Positions 5,936 through 57,366 of a stretch of DNA of 57,366 nucleotides are shown piece by piece. The DNA is from Pseudomonadota bacterium (GTDB taxonomy: Bacteria > Pseudomonadota > Gammaproteobacteria > Burkholderiales > Rhodocyclaceae). The notes beneath the pieces are model-generated. The model was not told the DNA's origin. It saw only the letters and a list, made by a program, of their open reading frames with translations, and ran no database searches. A program made the translations under genes and the position numbers. The stretch spans positions 1 to 57,366 of the forward strand of contig JAGTRS010000025.1 in NCBI GenBank assembly GCA_018262195.1. The letters run 5' to 3'. The stretch's first letter is position 1. The number at the start of each line of letters is the position of its first letter.

Positions 5936-6715
5936 ATGTTACGCATCATCTCCCTGAATCTCAATGGTATCCGCTCCGCGTGGAGTAAAAATGTGTTGCC
6001 GTGGGCGGTAGCCCAGGCCGCTGACATTATTTGTCTGCAGGAACTGAAGGCACAGTTGCCTGATCTTTCGCCGGAAATGATGGCGCCGGATGGCATGCAC
6101 ACCTACTACCACTGCGCGGAAAAGAAGGGGTATAGCGGTGTCGGTATCTGGAGTCGGCAAAAGCCGGATCGTGTCATCGAGGGCTTCGATGGCGGAGAGT
6201 TCGATGCCGAGGGGCGCTATATTCGCGCCGACTTTGGGAATCTGTCGGTAATTTCACTGTATTTGCCCTCGGGCTCTTCGTCGCCTGAGCGGCAAGAGGC
6301 CAAGTTCCGCTTCCTGGACCTGTTTTTCCCGCAGATGCTGGCTTTACGTGCTGAAGGTCGGGAAATCGTCTTATGTGGCGACTGGAATATCGCGCACCAG
6401 GCAATTGATCTGAAAAACTGGAAGTCGAATCAGAAAAATTCTGGCTTCTTGCCGGAAGAGCGTGCTTGGCTGACGCGGGTTTTCGAGGAGCTGGGCTGGA
6501 TTGATGTATATCGCAGCCTGCATCCGGAGGCCACGGATAGCTGCTACACATGGTGGAGCAATCGCGGTCAGGCCTGGGCCAAGAACGTTGGCTGGCGAAT
6601 CGACTACCAGATTGCGACTCCGGCTATCGCCGGAACGGCCGTTCAGGCAACGGTCTACAAGGATGAGCGATTTTCCGATCATGCCCCGCTGATCATTGAT
6701 TACGACTTTAAATAA
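5936..6715 (+). CDS. xth: Exodeoxyribonuclease III family AP endonuclease
   Basis: Mg-dependent AP endonuclease/3' exonuclease of base-excision repair. The 259 residues contain the EEP-family motifs in order: [10 protein letters not shown] (Asn), CLQELKAQ (catalytic Glu), [25 protein letters not shown] (Asp and Asn), and near the C-terminus WRIDYQIA and [12 protein letters not shown] (Asp-His). Start chosen at ATG 5936 ([11 protein letters not shown]); a TTG at 5927 adds three residues. No good ribosome site is visible for either. Confidence 0.95.
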
Positions 6716-6792
6716 GCATCCAAAGTGCATTGATTTCGCTGCGCCGTAGGGATAACCTGTCACTCTGCTTACTTGTCTAACGAGGTTGAAAA

Positions 6793-11971: not shown

Positions 11972-14018
11972 CTTCTCGCGTAGTCTTCTATTCACTGCCT
12001 TGGCTGCGCTGGGAAGTAGTGCATCCTGGGCCGATGACGAGACGGCCTATTTCAGCGAGTTACCGGTTGTTGCATCGGTCAGCCGGCTGCCGCAGCGCAT
12101 TGCGGATGCGCCAACTGCTGTCACCGTTATCGATCGGGAGTTGATCAAGGCTTCCGGTGCCCGTGATTTGAGTGATGTATTCCGGCTGGTGCCGGGCTTT
12201 CAGACCTTTCCCAATAACACCGAGGCAGCTCAGGTCACCTACCACGGCATGTCGGATGGTGAATATTCGCCGCGCCTGCAGGTGCTGGTGGATGGCCGTT
12301 CGCTGTATTCCCCCCTGTTCAGCAACGGAGTCAATTGGGCCACAATACCGGTAGCGCTTGAGGATATCGAGCGGATTGAGGTCGTGCGCGGCACCAATGC
12401 GGTGTCCTATGGCAGCAACGCCTTTCTCGGGGTGATCAACATCATTACCGTTGACCCCGCACTGGCGCATGGATTTTCGGTGTCGGCCAGCCATGGTAGC
12501 CAGAATGTCCGCGATTACGGCCTGCGAGTAGGGGGGCGGATTGGCGAGGTCGGGGATTTTCGTCTTACCTATCGGCAGCAGAACGACGATGCATTGAACA
12601 ATCGCGGCGACTGGATAGACGATTTCCGGTCACGCTTGTTCGATTTGCGGGCCGACATTGCCATCGACGCAATGAATGCTCTGCAGCTTAATGCCGGGCG
12701 GGTCGAAGGTGTGACGGGTATCGGCCGCCTGAATGGCGGGATGTTCTTCGGTCAGTCGACCAATCCGATTCGCAGCCTGCGTCAGACCGATACCTATGCT
12801 CAACTCCTCTGGCGCCATGTTGTTTCTCCGATGGCTGATTTCCAGTTGCGCTATGCATACGTTTCGGATCGTTCCGATGATGCGTTCAATATCGTTGTCC
12901 CCTTCGTTCCGCCGCAGACGTTTCACATCAATCAGTCTGGTGACGAGGGAAATCGTCACGAACTGGAGTTCCTCCACAATTTAAAGTTGGCGAGTGCCGG
13001 CAGGCTGGCCTGGGGGGCGAGCTGGCGTGAGGATAGCCTGCGTTCCGAATGGGTTTTGCCAGGACAGGGAACTGTGCGCCGCGATACGACCCGGGTATTT
13101 GGTAACTGGGAGGCCAAGCCGGCAACATGGCTGACCACCAACGTTGGTCTGGCTGGAGAGAACGACTCGCTGGCCGGTTTCCTGTGGTCACCGCGGGTCA
13201 GTGCCAATTTTCACGTCAATTCGGACAATACCCTGCGCATCGGCTATTCCAGGGCGCATCGTACCGGCAGCATCTACGACTATCGGGGGGACTACTGGTC
13301 GAGTTTGACCAAATACCAGTACAAGGCTGATTCCAATATGCCGGCAGAAGAGCTGGATACTTGGGAAATCGGCTATCTGGGCAATTGGCGTGCCTGGCGT
13401 GCCAGTCTGGATGTTAGATTGTTCGACGAAACGATGCGCAATCGTTTGTATGTGATCGACCGCGATGCATCCTCTCCGGTGCGCGATTCGGTGCCATCGC
13501 TGACCACTCCAATTCAGGATGTACGGATCGTGGGCGGCGAATACCAGTTCAAATGGCAGCCGTTTGAACCGACCCGCCTGGTGCTGACCCAGTCGTTTGC
13601 CAAGATCGAGAGTGATTACCAGGCTTCGGCATTGGCCTATCCCTACGGAACGCTCGGCCAGCTTACCGCCAACCAAAACATCGAAGCGCTGACCGAGCGC
13701 TCGATGCCACGCCGCTCTACCTCGCTGCTCTGGATGCAGACTCTGCCCTTCGGCATCCAGTTTTCGCTGGCGGGTTACTGGCAGGACAAGATGAAGTGGT
13801 CTGCCAATTCCTGGTCACCCAAGTATCGCCGTTTCGATAGCCGGCTGGCATATCCTTTCCGGGTGGGGGGGATTAATGCCGAAGTGGCCTATGTTGTTCA
13901 GTCGCTCAATGGTGCGCACGGCGAATACAAGGCCTACGATGGCACCGGTAACGATCCGGATGGCACGGGGCGGATCGTTGACCGTCGTCAGTGGATTAGC
14001 TTGCGGCTTGATTTCTGA
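11952..14018 (+). CDS. TonB-dependent outer-membrane receptor
   Basis: 688 residues from GTG 11952 (GGGG four bases upstream). A signal peptide is followed by SWADDETAYFSELPVVASVS (TonB-box region), then the plug domain (DLSDVFRLVPGFQTFPNN; VLVDGRSLYSPLFSNGVNW; IERIEVVRGTNAVSYGSNAF) and a beta-barrel ending with an aromatic residue (SLRLDF). The ligand cannot be read from sequence: it could be a siderophore, another metal chelate or a nutrient. It lies well apart from the cobalamin genes and has no riboswitch, so I do not call it BtuB. It overlaps pilZ by 20 bases. Confidence 0.92.
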   Translation: MIRPWNSFSRSLLFTALAALGSSASWADDETAYFSELPVVASVSRLPQRIADAPTAVTVIDRELIKASGARDLSDVFRLVPGFQTFPNNTEAAQVTYHGMSDGEYSPRLQVLVDGRSLYSPLFSNGVNWATIPVALEDIERIEVVRGTNAVSYGSNAFLGVINIITVDPALAHGFSVSASHGSQNVRDYGLRVGGRIGEVGDFRLTYRQQNDDALNNRGDWIDDFRSRLFDLRADIAIDAMNALQLNAGRVEGVTGIGRLNGGMFFGQSTNPIRSLRQTDTYAQLLWRHVVSPMADFQLRYAYVSDRSDDAFNIVVPFVPPQTFHINQSGDEGNRHELEFLHNLKLASAGRLAWGASWREDSLRSEWVLPGQGTVRRDTTRVFGNWEAKPATWLTTNVGLAGENDSLAGFLWSPRVSANFHVNSDNTLRIGYSRAHRTGSIYDYRGDYWSSLTKYQYKADSNMPAEELDTWEIGYLGNWRAWRASLDVRLFDETMRNRLYVIDRDASSPVRDSVPSLTTPIQDVRIVGGEYQFKWQPFEPTRLVLTQSFAKIESDYQASALAYPYGTLGQLTANQNIEALTERSMPRRSTSLLWMQTLPFGIQFSLAGYWQDKMKWSANSWSPKYRRFDSRLAYPFRVGGINAEVAYVVQSLNGAHGEYKAYDGTGNDPDGTGRIVDRRQWISLRLDF

Positions 14019-50471: not shown

Positions 50472-50938
50472 AACTTGCCGTACTCGCCGTTGGCCATCGT
50501 CAGCCCGACTGGGTTAACGAAGGCTGCGCCGAGTACCTCAAGCGCATGCCGCGCGAACTGCCGGCCAGCGTTACCGAAATAAAGCCCGAAGCCCGTGGTT
50601 CCAAGACCCGGGAGCAGTTGCTTGCCGCCGAAAAGTCGCGCATTCGCGATGCACTGGCTGCCGGTAGCCGCATTGTCGTCCTCGACGAGAAGGGCGATGA
50701 CCTGACCACCTTGAAACTGGCCAAACGCCTGGAAGCCTGGATGCAGGATGGCCGTGACGTGGCGCTGCTGATCGGTGGTGCCGACGGCCTCGATGAAGAA
50801 TTCAAGCAACAGGCCGACGACCGGCTGCGTCTCTCCAGTCTGACGCTGCCCCATGGCATGGCGCGCCTGCTATTATGCGAACAGCTTTATCGTGCTGTCA
50901 GTGTGCTGAAAAACCATCCTTATCACCGGGAGGGATGA
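50468..50938 (+). CDS. rlmH: 23S rRNA pseudouridine-1915 N3-methyltransferase
   Basis: 156-residue SPOUT methyltransferase acting on 70S ribosomes. MKLAVLAVGHRQPDWVNEG, FLIGGADG-type loop LLIGGADGLDEEF and the trefoil-knot ending LTLPHGMARLLLCEQLYRA with VLKNHPYHREG are conserved. ATG 50468 overlaps rsfS by 4 bases; the stop overlaps the maf start. Confidence 0.97.
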   Translation: MKLAVLAVGHRQPDWVNEGCAEYLKRMPRELPASVTEIKPEARGSKTREQLLAAEKSRIRDALAAGSRIVVLDEKGDDLTTLKLAKRLEAWMQDGRDVALLIGGADGLDEEFKQQADDRLRLSSLTLPHGMARLLLCEQLYRAVSVLKNHPYHREG

Positions 50939-51543
50939 TGCGTCTTTACCTAGCCTCGCGCAGTCCACGCCGTCGTGAATTACTGAACCAGATCGGTATC
51001 GATTTCGATACCGTCGTGTTCCGTGATGGCATGCGGGCGGATAGCGAAACCGATGAAACGCCGCAGCCGGGTGAGAGTCCGGTCGCCTATGTCGAGCGGG
51101 TAGCACGGGCCAAAGCCATTCATGGCCTGAAGATCGTCGAGGAGCGCAAGCTGCCGATGCGTCCGGTGCTGTCAGCCGACACGACGCTCGAATTCCATGG
51201 CGAAATCATCGGCAAGCCGGTTGACCGGGCCGATGCCGCCGCCATCCTGCGTCGCCTTTCCGGGCAGACGCACAAGGTGCTGACCGGTGTCGCCATCAAT
51301 CACATGGGGCACACCGAATATGTGCTGTCGACCAGCGAAGTCAGCTTCCGCGAGCTTGATGACGAGGAAATCCGCCATTACGTAATGAGTGGCGAGCCGA
51401 TGGACAAGGCCGGCGCTTATGGCATTCAGGGACGGGCAGGGCTGTTCGTTAAACATCTTTCCGGCAGTTTTACCGGTGTCATGGGCCTGCCGGTCTGCGA
51501 AACCGGCGACCTGCTCAAGAAGCTCGGCTTCAGGCCGCTTTAG
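50938..51543 (+). CDS. maf: Maf-family nucleotide pyrophosphatase (YhdE type)
   Basis: 201 residues from ATG 50938. House-cleaning enzyme hydrolysing dTTP/UTP or modified nucleotides. LYLASRSPRRRELLNQIGI, the metal/catalytic SADTTLEFHGEIIGKPVD, GKAGAYGIQG-like DKAGAYGIQGRAGLFV and SFTGVMGLPVCETGDLL are Maf hallmarks; the details favour the YhdE rather than the YceF subfamily. The 3' end overlaps the convergent phosphopantetheinyl transferase gene by 14 bases. Confidence 0.95.
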   Translation: MRLYLASRSPRRRELLNQIGIDFDTVVFRDGMRADSETDETPQPGESPVAYVERVARAKAIHGLKIVEERKLPMRPVLSADTTLEFHGEIIGKPVDRADAAAILRRLSGQTHKVLTGVAINHMGHTEYVLSTSEVSFRELDDEEIRHYVMSGEPMDKAGAYGIQGRAGLFVKHLSGSFTGVMGLPVCETGDLLKKLGFRPL

Positions 51544-52099
51544 TCGCAACGGCGCCGACGTAGCCGCTCGGCAAGGCCAGAGGCCGCGCGCGGTATTCAT
51601 TCAAAGACGCTTCCAGGATTGAACTCCACTCGGTCAAAGGCAGGCCTTGGCATTTCAGCCGTGCTTCGTGCCTCGTCCAGGCCTGGGCGAATTGTGCCAA
51701 GCGCTCCTGCGGCGCCAGATCGCTGAGTTGCCGGGCCAGCGTTGGGCCGAGATAGTCGCTGGCCAGTGCCGGAATTTGCCCTTCCCAGTCCGGATCATCC
51801 GGAATTCGAAGCAGATCGATGCCGACCGGGCCGGAAAAGTTAACGGCAAGCAGTGACAACCCCGATTCATGGCTGACCGAAATGCCGATCGGGCTGTCAG
51901 CCTGAGCGAGGCGTATCGCCTGGCCCGGAACGGAGATCAGTTCGACATTGCCCAGTATTTCGCGCAGCACGCCACGGACCAGCCGGCGGGCCGTGGCGCG
52001 AACGGACGTACATGGCGTGTCAATCGCAATGAGCAGCAACGATTGAGCTTGATCGAACGGAGCCGGCCAATGCAGGACGGCAGGTGGGCAATCGCTCAT
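51530..52099 (-). CDS. 4'-phosphopantetheinyl transferase superfamily protein
   Basis: 189 residues from ATG 52099, one base after the stop of the large synthetase (TGAAATG). The ACPS/Sfp signature is present: SPIGISVSHESG, GPVGIDLLR (metal Asp) and AQAWTRHEARLKCQGLPL, where the usual WxxKExxxK has His in place of the first Lys (WTRHEARLK). It would transfer phosphopantetheine from CoA to a carrier-protein serine; the neighbouring synthetase with its Ser570 is the obvious client. Confidence 0.87.
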   Translation of the reverse strand: MSDCPPAVLHWPAPFDQAQSLLLIAIDTPCTSVRATARRLVRGVLREILGNVELISVPGQAIRLAQADSPIGISVSHESGLSLLAVNFSGPVGIDLLRIPDDPDWEGQIPALASDYLGPTLARQLSDLAPQERLAQFAQAWTRHEARLKCQGLPLTEWSSILEASLNEYRARPLALPSGYVGAVATKAA

Positions 52100-52100
52100 T

Positions 52101-55100
52101 TCAACGGTTGGCCGGAGCCGCTGGGCAGCCGCTCCAGCTTGATCCGGCCGGCAGGCTTTCACCCTTCATGACCAGCGACAGCGGACCGAGACGGACGTTG
52201 TCACCGACCACGGCGCCGTACAGGACGGTGGTGCGCGGACCAATGTAAACCCGCTGGCCAATGCTGACCAGATCGATCTTCATCACACGATCTTCGAAGA
52301 GATGGGTTTGCGGGCAGGCCAGGGCATTAAGCTCGCTATAATCGCCGATCTGAACACAATCGAATTCCGTGACGTCGGTGGTATCGAGATAGACGCCACG
52401 CCCGATGCGGCAACCTAGCAGATTAAGGGCAATTGGCAGCCATGGGGTGCCACGCAGGTAGTTCATCTGGTTGGGGACGGCCATCCCGACATAAAGGCTG
52501 GTGATCGCCTCGGAGGCCCAGACGAAGGGCGTCCACATCGGCACCGAATACTTCTTGTAGCGCCAGATGCACAGCCATTTGAGCACGGCGACGAAGAGTA
52601 TGGTGCTCAGGCCGAAAAGCACCCCGGCGACAGTCAGGGCGGCGAAAACCTCGGGCCAGCGACCGGCTTCGGCCAGCGACATGACGTTGAGGACAACGGT
52701 GTAGCCAACGGCAATGACCAGCGCGTGCGGGGAAATGATGCGGAAGGCTTCGACCAGGGCGCGACCCAGGCGACGCAGATTGGAGGGGCGGAAGGTCAGT
52801 TCTTCCGGGTAGCCGGCCGTTTGCTCGCGGGCCGGCAGATTGATTGGCGGCGAGCCGAGCCAGGTATCGCCAGGCTGCATGCGTTCATTGGCCGGAGCGC
52901 GTGACTGGACGCCGATCAGGACGTTTTCGGGAAGGATGGTGCCATCAGGGATGAAGGCGCCATTGCCGACGAAGCTGCGACGCGAGATCACCGTCGGCTT
53001 CAGGGTCATCCAGCCGCCGTCCACCTCTTCGTCGCCGAGCATCACGGCATCGGCGATGAAGGTTTCGTCACCCAGCGTCAGCAGGTCGGGGACCAGACCC
53101 TGGGCGGTGGAAATTTCGGCATCGCGGCCCACCTTGGCGCCGAGCAGGCGATACCAGAAGGGGGCGTACACGGTGGCGTAGATGCCGTGCAGGATGTTGA
53201 GGCTCGATTCCTGAATCTGGTTCACCAGCCAGCGGCTGCAATAAATGCGGCTGTGGATCGGCCAGCTGCCGGCCTCAAGTCTCGGCATCAGGGTCCAGCG
53301 CAGGACCGCGGAGCTGAGCATGGTGCCGACGATCAGCACCGCCGTGCCGGGGAAGGCGAGGGCAAAGTACTTGAGGAGCTGGAGGGCGATCGGGATATCC
53401 CGCTGCGCCGGGGTCGGGTCACTGTCCAGCCAGTCCACCAGCATGAAACTGGGAAATACCGGCATGAAAAACAGCGCGGCGGTGGCCAGCATGCCCAGCA
53501 CGTAGAACAGCCCTTCGCGAGCGAGGCGTGTGTCGGAGACTTCGGGGCGCGGTGCGATCGATGCCGGATCGAACTCGCCGATATCGCGGGCCGGAGCGCC
53601 GAGCCAGATCCGTCTTGCCGGCAGCGCCTGGCCTTCGCTCAAGGCAGACTGGCCTTCCAGATGGCCATAGGCGCCGATTGTCGTATTGCCTTCGACGACC
53701 GCGTAGGACCCAATGCAGGCATTGTCCTCGATGGTGATCGGGCCGAGATGAAGCTGGCCGCGTTCAACCCGGGCATTTTCAAGATTGGCGGCATTGCCGA
53801 TGCTGACACCATCACCGACGCAAAGCAGGTCGTGAGCACGCAGGGTGATGTTGCCGATGATTGTTTCGTGACCAATTTTGGCGCCGAGCGCGCGTAGCCA
53901 CCAGATATTGAGCGGCGAACTGCTCAGCATATAGACCGGCGCGCCTTCAATCAGCCGGTTGGCGCACCACCAGCGAAAATAGGTCAGACCCCACAGGGGA
54001 TAGCTGCCGGCTTTCAAACGGCCGGCAATCAGCCATTTCCCGACAATGGCAAAGACGAAGCTGAGTAAGGTGGCAATGAGAAAAACACCGACCGAGATTG
54101 CGACGGCACGGGCAATCGAATCGCCGGGGTCGCCGGTGAAGTAGTGGTAGGTGAAGAAAGGGGCCAGCCATTGGCCCATGCGAATGCCGACCAGCGGTGG
54201 CAGCACGCAGGCCTGGGCGATGGCGCACAGCCAGCGGCGATGGGCTGGTGGTGGCTTCCATTCGCTGGCACTTTGGTCGATGCTCACTTCGACCGTCGCG
54301 CTCAGGGCATCGGCAATCAGACCAACGCGGCGGTGAATATAGATGTCGCGCACCGAAAAGCCGGCAAAACGCGCCTCCTGGCGCAGGGTTGAGGCGAGGC
54401 GGGCGGCGAACAGCGAGTGGCCACCGAGGTCGGCAAAGAAATCGGCTTCGCGCTTGATGGCCTGGCCGGGGAATAGTTTGGTCAGGGCGGCGAAAAGAAT
54501 TTCCTCGGCCGGGGTTTCCGGCGTGTCCGAATCGCCGGGGGCGCCGGCGGGGAGTTCGAGCGGACGGGCGCGCAGGGCCTTGCGGTCGATCTTGCCGGAG
54601 GTCAGGCGCGGCATTTCGGTCAGCATCTCGAAATGCGAAGGCACCATGTAGGGCGGCAAAGAGGTGGCCAGAACGGTACGCAGGGCGGCGCCCGTGGTGG
54701 CTTCGGCATCTTCCGGGATCAGGTAGGCAACCAGTCGCTCGATACCTTCGTCCTGACGCAGGATGACCGCTGCCGTACCGACGCCGGGCTGGCGGGTCAG
54801 GGCCGCTTCGATTTCGCCCAGCTCGACGCGGAAACCGCGAATCTTGACTTGGTCGTCAGTGCGGCCCAGACAGTGGATCTGGCCGGTTTCGTCGATGCGG
54901 GCGAGGTCGCCGGTGCGGTAGAGTCGGCTTTCATGGGCGTTGGCGGCCCATGGGTTGTCGAGAAATTTTTCGGCGGTCAGATCCGGGCGGCCGAGGTAGC
55001 CGGCAGCAACGCCGGGGCCGGTGATGCACAGCTCGCCGGTTTCGTCTTGCGGCAACAGGCGCAGGCCGTTCTCGACGGCAGCGTCGATCACCAGCAGGCC

Positions 55101-56123
55101 GTAGTTGGGTAGCGGGCGGCCGATGGTAACCGGCTGGCCGGGGTGCAGCTCGGCCAGACTGGCCGAGACGGTGGCTTCGGTTGGGCCGTAGGTGTTGAAG
55201 AGCTGGCGACCGGGCCGGGCCCAGCGTTCGACGATAGCTTGCGGACAGGCTTCACCGCCGAGGTTGATCAGGCGCAGGCCGGGTACATCGCAGGTGAACA
55301 GGGCGAGCAGGGTCGGTACGGCATGCAGGACGCTGACCCGGTTGTCGATCAGGGCAATCGGCAGGGCTTCGGGATCGGTCGCGACATCCTTGGGGGCGAT
55401 CCACAGCGTGGCGCCGACCAGGTAGCTGATCCAGATTTCCTCGAAGGACATGTCGAAGGCGACCGAAAAGCCCTGATAAACGCGGTCGTGCTCAACGATG
55501 CCGAGAACGGCGTTTTCGCTGCGCAGGAAATGGCAGATGGCGCCCTGGTTGATCAGGATGCCCTTGGGCTTGCCGGTCGAGCCTGAGGTGTAGATGACGT
55601 AGGCCGGATCGCTCGGGCGGGCATCGTGGCGGTGATTGAGCGGGCCGGGGTGGGCTGCTTGCAGGTCGTCGGCCAGCCAGCAGCGGCGACCGAGGTCGGC
55701 GATATCGGCGACGGTGACCAGGCCGGCACTTTCGGCGTCGCCGAGACAGATCTTGATGCGGTCAATCGGCGTATCGGCGTCGAAAGGTAGCCAGGCGGCA
55801 CCGGTTTTGGCGATGCCGAGTTGCATGACCAGTAGTTCGATGCCGCGCGGCAGCCAGAGGCCGACGATCTGGCCGGGGCGGACCCCTTCGGCGATCAGGC
55901 GCGAGGCGACGCGGTCGGCGGCAGCATTCAGTTGGCCGTAGCTGAGTTCGCGTTCGTCGAAAATCAGCGCAATTTTTTCCGGTGCACGGGCTGCCGTGGC
56001 CTCAAAAAGGTCGGCCAGGATTTCGTGGCGAATCAGTTCGGGGGATGCTGGTCCGCACAGGCGGCTGGTCGGGCAGGACGGGAGGCGGATTTCGAGCATG
56101 CCGAATTGTGCCAAATCCGGCAT
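52101..56123 (-). CDS. Pls-like synthetase: adenylation, carrier, membrane and three left-handed beta-helix blocks
   Basis: 1340 residues. Adenylation domain (about 35-515): A3 YVIYTSGSTGKPKG (175-188), substrate Asp224 in AFDMSFEE, A5 NTYGPTEATV, A7 LYRTGDLARI, A10 Lys511 in LTSGKIDRKA. Carrier domain with phosphopantetheine site Ser570 (FFADLGGHSLFA). Then three rounds of membrane helices (about 665-700, 875-945, 1130-1190) each followed by hexapeptide-repeat beta-helix (about 745-830, 995-1075, 1235-1325). No condensation, epimerase or thioesterase domain. This layout is that of epsilon-poly-L-lysine synthetase and related terminal-domain NRPS proteins. Asp224 suggests an alpha-amino acid substrate; which one is not readable. 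ATG 56099 is an alternative start. Confidence 0.9.
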   Translation of the reverse strand: MPDLAQFGMLEIRLPSCPTSRLCGPASPELIRHEILADLFEATAARAPEKIALIFDERELSYGQLNAAADRVASRLIAEGVRPGQIVGLWLPRGIELLVMQLGIAKTGAAWLPFDADTPIDRIKICLGDAESAGLVTVADIADLGRRCWLADDLQAAHPGPLNHRHDARPSDPAYVIYTSGSTGKPKGILINQGAICHFLRSENAVLGIVEHDRVYQGFSVAFDMSFEEIWISYLVGATLWIAPKDVATDPEALPIALIDNRVSVLHAVPTLLALFTCDVPGLRLINLGGEACPQAIVERWARPGRQLFNTYGPTEATVSASLAELHPGQPVTIGRPLPNYGLLVIDAAVENGLRLLPQDETGELCITGPGVAAGYLGRPDLTAEKFLDNPWAANAHESRLYRTGDLARIDETGQIHCLGRTDDQVKIRGFRVELGEIEAALTRQPGVGTAAVILRQDEGIERLVAYLIPEDAEATTGAALRTVLATSLPPYMVPSHFEMLTEMPRLTSGKIDRKALRARPLELPAGAPGDSDTPETPAEEILFAALTKLFPGQAIKREADFFADLGGHSLFAARLASTLRQEARFAGFSVRDIYIHRRVGLIADALSATVEVSIDQSASEWKPPPAHRRWLCAIAQACVLPPLVGIRMGQWLAPFFTYHYFTGDPGDSIARAVAISVGVFLIATLLSFVFAIVGKWLIAGRLKAGSYPLWGLTYFRWWCANRLIEGAPVYMLSSSPLNIWWLRALGAKIGHETIIGNITLRAHDLLCVGDGVSIGNAANLENARVERGQLHLGPITIEDNACIGSYAVVEGNTTIGAYGHLEGQSALSEGQALPARRIWLGAPARDIGEFDPASIAPRPEVSDTRLAREGLFYVLGMLATAALFFMPVFPSFMLVDWLDSDPTPAQRDIPIALQLLKYFALAFPGTAVLIVGTMLSSAVLRWTLMPRLEAGSWPIHSRIYCSRWLVNQIQESSLNILHGIYATVYAPFWYRLLGAKVGRDAEISTAQGLVPDLLTLGDETFIADAVMLGDEEVDGGWMTLKPTVISRRSFVGNGAFIPDGTILPENVLIGVQSRAPANERMQPGDTWLGSPPINLPAREQTAGYPEELTFRPSNLRRLGRALVEAFRIISPHALVIAVGYTVVLNVMSLAEAGRWPEVFAALTVAGVLFGLSTILFVAVLKWLCIWRYKKYSVPMWTPFVWASEAITSLYVGMAVPNQMNYLRGTPWLPIALNLLGCRIGRGVYLDTTDVTEFDCVQIGDYSELNALACPQTHLFEDRVMKIDLVSIGQRVYIGPRTTVLYGAVVGDNVRLGPLSLVMKGESLPAGSSWSGCPAAPANR

Positions 56124-56147
56124 GAAACGGGGCGTTTACGGGGTGTT

Positions 56148-57212
56148 TCAGGCAGGGATTTGTGCGCTGGCGTGGCAAATGATGGCATTTGCCGCCTGAT
56201 TGATGCCGTTTGCTGTCGGAATGGGGGGTGGTTTTTGATTCAGAAGCGCTTCAATGGCATAACCAAGCTGTCCTCGTTCAAGCTCTGCCGCTTCGATCTC
56301 GAGACACCGCGCATTGCTGCTCAGCCATTCGATCAGGCAATCCTGCTCCGGCCAGTCTTCACGTCGCTGGTAGATGACCGGTGTGCCGTTGCAGGCGGCC
56401 TCAGTGAACGTGCCGTAGCCGGGTTTGGTGATGATCGCATCGACGGAGCGCAGCAGGTCGGTGAAGCTAAGGCCAAAGGACTCGCTGGCCATTGCATCGG
56501 GGTGCCGGCAGTTCCATTCGGCGGGAACCAGCCAGCGCACGCCGGGCAGCCGGGGCCAGTTTTCCACCGGCAGGCGGTGGGTGATGCCGCCCATGGCGAT
56601 CAGGATGGCCTTGTCGCCATTCAGGTCGAGGTCGTGTTTGGTGCCAAGGGCGGCAATCGGTCCGACGGGCTGGATATTGCCCAGCGCATCCATTGCCATA
56701 CCCGGCGTAACTCGCAGGAAAGCCTGCGCCGACCGGTAGGCGGCGAGCATTTCAGCGTGGATGGGCCGCGCCCAAGATTGGTTGCCGAAGAAGTGATCAA
56801 ACAGGTCGGCCCAGTTCAAAGAGCACAGGCTGATGGCGGGAATGCCCGCAGCGGCAGCCCCGGCCAGCGGCAGGTAGCTGACGTTGGTGAGCACCAGATC
56901 GGGCTTTAGGTTGGCGAGAAAAAGGGCTTCATCAGCAACGCGGCTGGCCCAGTCAGTGTGGGTCTGACGATAGGCGGAAGCGCTGGCCGCCAGATCGACG
57001 CGGGTGGCATCGATCATGGCGTAACCAAAATCGCTCGCGGCGCTGATCAGAGTGAAAGGTGTCTTGATCCGTTGCTGCAGCTTGGCGGGGGGCAGGGCGC
57101 TTCTCACGGTCAAGCGGAAATTCGGGGCAATTTCGGCCAGGGCATTGAGCACCGGCGCCGTGATGGCGAGGTGCCCGAAGCCGTGGCTGGAAATGTCGAC
57201 AAACAGGTGCAT
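56148..57212 (-). CDS. GT-B glycosyltransferase-like protein
   Basis: 354 residues. N-terminal FVDISSHGFGHLAITAPVLN is a glycine/histidine loop as in MurG- and UDP-glucuronosyltransferase-type GT-B enzymes; the C-terminal half has LIAMGGITHRLP, VDAIITKPGYGTFTEAACNG and TPVIYQRREDWPEQDCLIEW, typical of the donor-binding domain. It lies 24 bases upstream of the large synthetase on the same strand, so it may glycosylate that system's product. Donor and acceptor unknown. Confidence 0.85.
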   Translation of the reverse strand: MHLFVDISSHGFGHLAITAPVLNALAEIAPNFRLTVRSALPPAKLQQRIKTPFTLISAASDFGYAMIDATRVDLAASASAYRQTHTDWASRVADEALFLANLKPDLVLTNVSYLPLAGAAAAGIPAISLCSLNWADLFDHFFGNQSWARPIHAEMLAAYRSAQAFLRVTPGMAMDALGNIQPVGPIAALGTKHDLDLNGDKAILIAMGGITHRLPVENWPRLPGVRWLVPAEWNCRHPDAMASESFGLSFTDLLRSVDAIITKPGYGTFTEAACNGTPVIYQRREDWPEQDCLIEWLSSNARCLEIEAAELERGQLGYAIEALLNQKPPPIPTANGINQAANAIICHASAQIPA

Positions 57213-57242: not shown

Positions 57243-57366
57243 TCAGCGGTTCTTGAACACCGGTTTTCGCTTCTCGACAAAGGCCGCCATGCCTTCCTTC
57301 TGGTCTTCGAGGGCGAAGGCCGAGTGGAAGACGCGGCGCTCGAACAACAGACCTTCGTTCAGGCTG
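57243..57366 (-). CDS. Enoyl-CoA hydratase/isomerase, C-terminal part
   Basis: Only the last 40 residues are in the window: [20 protein letters not shown], then [20 protein letters not shown] and TGA. The GLxFERRxF and DQKEGMxAFxEKRxPxFxxR pattern is the conserved end of the crotonase family. The N-terminal part lies beyond base 57366. The 30 bases between its stop and the upstream end of the glycosyltransferase gene hold nothing recognisable. Confidence 0.92.

Follow-up and report, generated by a model that had tools for sequence, protein, structure and literature searches.

What does a synthetase with a single adenylation domain and a single carrier domain produce, and which of the genes packed around it take part in the process? 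This question is raised by a locus near the end of a 57,366-base stretch of DNA (the window), which is the entire contig C6 of a 4.23-Mb assembly in 89 contigs. The organism is a Dechloromonas-like betaproteobacterium: close relatives of the synthetase, where named, belong to Dechloromonas, Azonexus or Azonexaceae. The cultured Dechloromonas aromatica RCB, in which the predictions could be put to the test, has a protein that is 92% identical to it. Three genes lie here on the minus strand, to which the coordinates of all their parts refer. A glycosyltransferase gene is followed after 24 bases by the gene of a 1340-residue nonribosomal peptide synthetase (NRPS; 52101-56123), and this is followed after 1 base by the gene of a 189-residue phosphopantetheinyl transferase (PPTase; 51530-52099). 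The ATG of the PPTase is one base past the NRPS stop codon; a longer listed open reading frame (ORF) starts with GTG at 52162, within the NRPS gene. We suggest, with a probability of roughly three in four, that the NRPS and the PPTase are a pair that makes short, delta-linked chains of L-ornithine at the inner membrane, and that the glycosyltransferase is probably a bystander.

Judged by its sequence, the NRPS is a new member of the known Pls/PosA family. Its match to TIGR02353, the profile of the terminal domain of this family, scores 799.8 bits (802.3 bits in the genome scan) against a curated cut-off of 423.1. Pfam finds one AMP-binding domain with AMP-binding_C, a PP-binding domain and hexapeptide repeats; among its matches at E<=1 there is neither a condensation nor a thioesterase domain. 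The initial annotation of this DNA, which had described the three genes with their spacing and a Pls-type, amino-acid-polymerising synthetase with one adenylation and one carrier domain, is thus borne out with respect to coordinates, domains and family. The adenylation domain spans residues 35-518 (54570-56021), as placed by Pfam, by alignment to the PosA structure and by the published PosA code (PMC10522769), and the carrier domain covers residues 544-605 (54309-54494). The PP-binding match is weak, i.e. 19.3 bits in one search, which is under the cut-off of 20.8, and 24.7 bits, which is over it, in a second one; the phosphopantetheine serine, S570 (codon 54414-54416), is present in 201 out of 201 aligned rows.

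Predicted substrate and the PPTase partner

The residues that line the adenylation pocket, D224, M225, E228, H267, N287, G289, T311, V319, S320 and K511, spell DMEHNGTVSK, which is the code of PosA. Nine of the ten positions were matched to the sequence of the PosA structure, which stops before the tenth, and K511 was matched to the published code. The best PDB matches of the NRPS are the four PosA adenylation entries 8G95-8G98 (two distinct sequences; E 6.6e-160 for 8g95/8g96), and the adenylation core is identical to that of Acinetobacter baumannii PosA at 248 of 391 aligned residues (63%). The code is unchanged in 79 of 80 loci and, among 120 listed proteins, in 114, and each of the seven exceptions deviates at one position. 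The 80 loci are the best-kept ones of 554 relatives and are hence biased to betaproteobacteria and pseudomonads.

According to the parts of the PosA study that we draw on (PMC10522769), Asp217 and Glu221 are essential and Thr304 and Ser313 are important for ornithine, while Met218 sets a limit of side-chain length that works against lysine. The full-length enzyme gave free, delta-linked ornithine 7-12-mers in vitro, and a lysine polymer was not seen. As the pocket and the core match PosA, we infer that the likely product is delta-poly-L-ornithine, and the prediction of L-ornithine as substrate is strong by analogy. The initial annotation had spoken of a homopolymer or short amide of an unstated monomer and had taken Pls as its model; the type of enzyme stands, but the description was too vague, since the pocket points to L-ornithine, and the nearest characterised enzyme is PosA, not Pls.

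Two further members of the family have other pockets. The divergent one at L167 (G372:C1) reads DSECYGGVTK, the code of a Bdellovibrionales enzyme that is reported to have modest arginine activity (PMC10522769). The one at L155 (G422:C6) is 34% identical, has the carrier motif GANSLLM and reads DFEALGTVTK, with Phe at the length-setting position, a feature that the same study links to diaminopropionate/diaminobutyrate enzymes.

A relative of the window PPTase lies directly downstream of the synthetase gene, on the same strand, in 62 of the 80 loci (tblastn). By a stricter profile rule the number is 61, as this rule misses L008, where the match starts 48 bases ahead of the end of the synthetase gene. 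When ORFs of the neighbourhood are crudely clustered, the PPTase is found at 45 loci and the next commonest family at 9, which indicates that the pair stays together while its surroundings change. The PPTase, which had been annotated as the partner of the NRPS, is thus widely conserved next to it, and within the PosA-type group the NRPS-PPTase pair is frequent without being universal. An apparent NRPS-PPTase fusion in L048 was rejected, because the 1555 codons of its frame do not follow the reading frame of the synthetase.

In a wider sample of 398 Pseudomonadota genomes, 27, among them that of the window, have the synthetase family at E<=1e-60. We examined 18 regions, taken from the five other genomes of the host's family that exceed the TIGR02353 cut-off and from 13 of the 26 other genomes of the wider sample. 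A downstream PPTase is found in five regions, all of which have the DMEHNGTVSK code. None was found downstream in four more regions with this code (L154, one of them, runs into the end of its contig) or in nine with other codes (L164 has one upstream), with a profile built from the PPTases of close relatives, which a distant PPTase could escape.

The window PPTase itself matches the Pfam ACPS family PF01648 with 26.8 bits, barely over the cut-off of 25 (28 bits in the genome scan), and it scores far below the cut-offs of the NCBIfam equivalogs HetI (31.4 vs 370) and AcpT (25.9 vs 174). The genome has two ACPS-family matches, this PPTase and one on C50, and nine PP-binding matches. PosA, once purified, was treated with Sfp, a PPTase added ahead of the assay. 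A conserved PPTase next door may explain how the synthetase could be loaded in hosts that have few such enzymes, and it may serve as a genome-mining marker for ornithine-type members. In the literature that we searched on Pls and non-alpha poly-amino acids (NAPAA) together with PPTases, most of which was available as listings, we met with no account of a conserved pairing of PosA with a PPTase.

The presumed polymerising domain of the synthetase

The C-terminal membrane/polymerisation domain extends over residues 636-1335 (52119-54218), as outlined by TIGR02353 and by a structure model. The model covers residues 601-1340 and was built from an alignment of 30 rows, in which the other rows are 27-92% identical to the window protein; its mean predicted local distance difference test score (pLDDT) is 89.6 and its predicted template modelling score (pTM) is 0.89. 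Three helix pairs, at about residues 627-663/670-699, 864-886/912-945 and 1115-1152/1156-1185, give six putative membrane helices, besides which there are three lobes rich in short beta strands: lobe 1 (residues 700-862; 53538-54026), lobe 2 (946-1105; 52809-53288) and lobe 3 (1186-1340; 52104-52568). The published PosA model is described in like terms, with six membrane helices and with three lobes of beta-helix that are packed, in the reading of its authors, as in sugar-nucleotide acyltransferases (PMC10522769). HHalign finds the lobes homologous to one another (probabilities of 99.9, 99.8 and 99.3, as opposed to 0.28, 0.40 and 0.18 for reversed-sequence controls), so the three alternating membrane/beta-helix blocks of the initial annotation are seen in the prediction as well. 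The best fold matches of the model are hexapeptide acetyltransferases with a left-handed beta-helix; a PDB search with the sequence of this region gives only weak matches, to hexapeptide and gamma-carbonic-anhydrase proteins (best E 6.8e-7).

A conspicuous difference between the lobes concerns one histidine. When they are aligned, H1274 of lobe 3 (codon 52302-52304) stands opposite A784 of lobe 1 and E1032 of lobe 2. In the 201-row alignment, most rows have Ala or Val at position 784, and Glu occupies position 1032 in 200 rows, the remaining one having Asp. H1274 belongs to a motif Q1272-x-H1274-x-x-E1277. Neither the three named residues of this motif nor K1282, K1320 and E1322 of the same lobe vary in any row of the 30-row alignment or of the 201-row one (198 distinct rows). 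It is also the only histidine conserved at a level of at least 90% in the 30-row alignment, which reaches down to 27% identity. We propose that lobe 3, via H1274, is the sole amide-forming site, and that lobes 1 and 2 are degenerate. A review calls amino-acid joining by Pls/PosA without a condensation domain "not completely understood", and the PosA study, in the parts consulted, gives the C-terminal domain as a model and names no catalytic residues (PMC10522769). In the searched literature, again mostly listings, there is no named catalytic histidine for Pls/PosA. An invariant His motif in one of three homologous lobes offers a simple mutational test of the polymerisation mechanism.

The pair could thus work as follows. 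The PPTase would put the phosphopantetheine arm on S570, and the adenylation domain would activate L-ornithine with ATP and load it on this arm. Amide-bond formation would then fall to the C-terminal domain, which is predicted to be embedded in the membrane and carries its three lobes on one polypeptide. Here the ornithyl thioester would be attacked by the delta-amine of free ornithine or of the chain; we propose that H1274 of lobe 3 serves as general base, with lobe 1 and lobe 2 as degenerate partners. Between rounds the chain would not be attached to the enzyme, as is reported for Pls, in which the growing chain is a free acceptor and is never enzyme-bound (PMC9205021). A chain that is free between rounds fits aminolysis by lobe 3 alone.

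There are several points that weigh against this reading. With respect to the substrate, PosA is reported to activate D-ornithine too and, weakly, L-lysine (PMC10522769). With respect to the pair, 18 of the 80 loci have no adjacent PPTase, and posA of A. baumannii reportedly forms an operon by itself, so an adjacent PPTase is not always needed. With respect to the active site, the structural match rows mainly cover lobe 1, which gives most of the best rows, and not lobe 3. Two further histidines, H660 and H1133, both in predicted membrane helices, do not vary among the 201 closer rows. The invariant polar residues of the 30-row alignment also include Q637 in the first membrane pair, R717 in lobe 1, and D1025 and N1054 in lobe 2, so a site shared with lobe 2 may exist. 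Finally, solved galactoside acetyltransferases have histidines in the loop that aligns with that of H1274, with a weak alignment (whole-sequence E 0.026, domain E ~1.3); we take this loop to hold the catalytic histidine of the galactoside and maltose acetyltransferases.

It is also conceivable that the C-terminal domain transfers single ornithines or very short chains to an acceptor in the envelope, a lipid or a sugar polymer, so that no free homopolymer arises. The lobes do resemble acyltransferases with small-molecule acceptors, a membrane location is predicted by the model, and the report that the Pls chain is never enzyme-bound (PMC9205021) would suit such a transfer; however, PosA, which has the same pocket, releases free 7-12-mers in vitro, and we consider this alternative improbable. 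A wider speculation concerns the family as a whole. All Pls/PosA enzymes might polymerise by means of three hexapeptide acyltransferases that are fused into a pseudo-trimer and anchored in the membrane, with an aminoacyl carrier domain in place of the CoA donor. Two of the three sites would have lost their activity, and each isopeptide bond would be made by the remaining one, the His-bearing site of lobe 3. The PosA-type enzyme and its own PPTase would commonly form a two-gene cassette in betaproteobacteria and pseudomonads. This generalisation is tentative, and we put its chances somewhat short of even.

A match of about one lobe to the terminal-domain profile (105.6 bits, positions 48-219) was noted in a 322-residue frame at L099 (G018:C1:3977874-3978398). 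Similar partial matches occur in genomes of the host's family that have no full synthetase; they are possible relatives of an ancestral single lobe.

The glycosyltransferase and the rest of the neighbourhood

The upstream gene (56148-57212) encodes a protein of 354 residues that exceeds the curated cut-off of no family in Pfam or NCBIfam; e.g. the scores are 11.9 vs 195.9 for MJ1255/VC2487 and 13.9 vs 440 for activator-dependent glycosyltransferases. Its model (pLDDT 80.8) matches GT-B enzymes of the UDP-glycosyltransferase (UGT)/macrolide type (Foldseek best E 6.8e-14), in agreement with the fold assigned initially. The same source had made this gene part of a three-gene unit with a possibly glycosylated product, an amino-acid polymer or amide. 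There are arguments for such a unit, namely the shared direction, the 24-bp and 1-bp gaps, the UGT/macrolide-like fold and a report of a different cluster that has a Pls/PosA-like NRPS with a glycosyltransferase (PMC13291983). The glycosyltransferase gene precedes the synthetase gene in the window and in six of the 80 loci, namely L003-L007 and L009 (L004 is labelled Azonexaceae, L006 Rhodocyclaceae, L007 Azonexus, and L003, L005 and L009 Proteobacteria only), so co-transcription is plausible.

The distribution of the genes argues otherwise. No glycosyltransferase match was found in 74 of the 80 loci, two of which (L016 and L049) hold less than 400 bases upstream and cannot tell. Among 150 genomes of the host's family, the glycosyltransferase is present in 44 (E<=1e-20), whereas the synthetase terminal domain exceeds the cut-off in six (G000, G007, G074, G087, G094 and G125); both are present only in G000 and G125, and in G125 they are on different contigs. 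In two genomes of the same genus, G112 and G062, there is no full synthetase and the glycosyltransferase is the next gene found beside maf; a third one, G147, has neither. We therefore reject the glycosyltransferase as a functional part, conclude that it is probably an unrelated neighbour, and give a glycosylated product little credence, even though co-transcription with the synthetase in the window is possible.

G112 has 72 bp in place of the 4577 bp at 51565-56141 (minus strand) of the window, between flanks that are 89.0% and 88.4% identical (blastn). A nine-taxon tree of the maf, glycosyltransferase, rsfS and rlmH proteins places G112 in one group with the window and L003 (ultrafast bootstrap, UFBoot, 100). 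When rooted on G042, which is an assumption, this group lies beside the synthetase-bearing L004-L006, which makes a loss of the pair in G112 simpler than repeated gain. G112 as a pre-insertion site was therefore not adopted.

On the other side of the pair, maf (50875-51543) is tail to tail with the PPTase gene. The earlier remark that maf is usually followed by rng holds in 6 of 10 genomes of the family, in which RNase G is the next one among the genes looked for, with 6 to 540 bases between the matches. In L004-L006, rng is separated from maf by a multi-gene island, at whose far end it lies and which includes the PPTase, synthetase and glycosyltransferase genes. Pfam, run on one example each, adds acyl-CoA-synthetase-like and acyltransferase-3 genes to this island, and an enoyl-CoA hydratase in L006; there is also a frame that is presumably U32-peptidase-like. 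The complete enoyl-CoA-hydratase-like gene of L006 (Pfam ECH_1) is at 6017-6790. The 3' end of such a gene (57243-57366, minus strand) lies upstream of the glycosyltransferase gene in the window, where it is cut by the contig end. In L007, from an Azonexus relative, a D-alanyl-D-alanine-carboxypeptidase-like gene (12513-13331) stands between the PPTase gene and maf.

Comparison with known systems

The window synthetase can be compared to several known systems. Firstly, it shares with PosA the layout of adenylation, carrier and terminal domains and, in both models, the six membrane helices and three beta-helix lobes; the difference is in the genes, in as much as posA of A. baumannii is reported to stand alone and the window synthetase has a PPTase gene one base downstream. 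Secondly, Pls, the epsilon-poly-L-lysine synthetase of Streptomyces albulus, is of the same family and layout, and non-covalent chain growth would be expected in both. Its adenylation domain (7WEW) matches that of the window protein with 266.3 bits as opposed to 537.2 bits for PosA. That the window enzyme might itself be an epsilon-poly-L-lysine synthetase as in Streptomyces, as the common architecture and the modest activity of the PosA adenylation domain on lysine (PMC10522769) could suggest, is very unlikely, since the pocket comparison proposed by the initial annotation finds Met (M225) at the length-setting position, which is Ala in lysine enzymes, and a pocket that is identical, at the positions compared, to that of PosA, an enzyme that gave no lysine polymer in vitro. 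Thirdly, the lobes resemble the left-handed beta-helices of hexapeptide acyltransferases (serine, maltose and galactoside O-acetyltransferases and the N-acyltransferase AntD). The window protein differs from these in having three lobes in one chain, intervening membrane helices, its own carrier domain and, as proposed, one His-bearing lobe. Finally, the PPTase is like the Sfp/AcpT/HetI-type enzymes in that it exceeds the PF01648 cut-off, and unlike them with its 189 residues and its scores below the HetI and AcpT equivalog cut-offs. What the locus usefully adds to the known family is the conserved partnership with a PPTase and the prediction of one active lobe.

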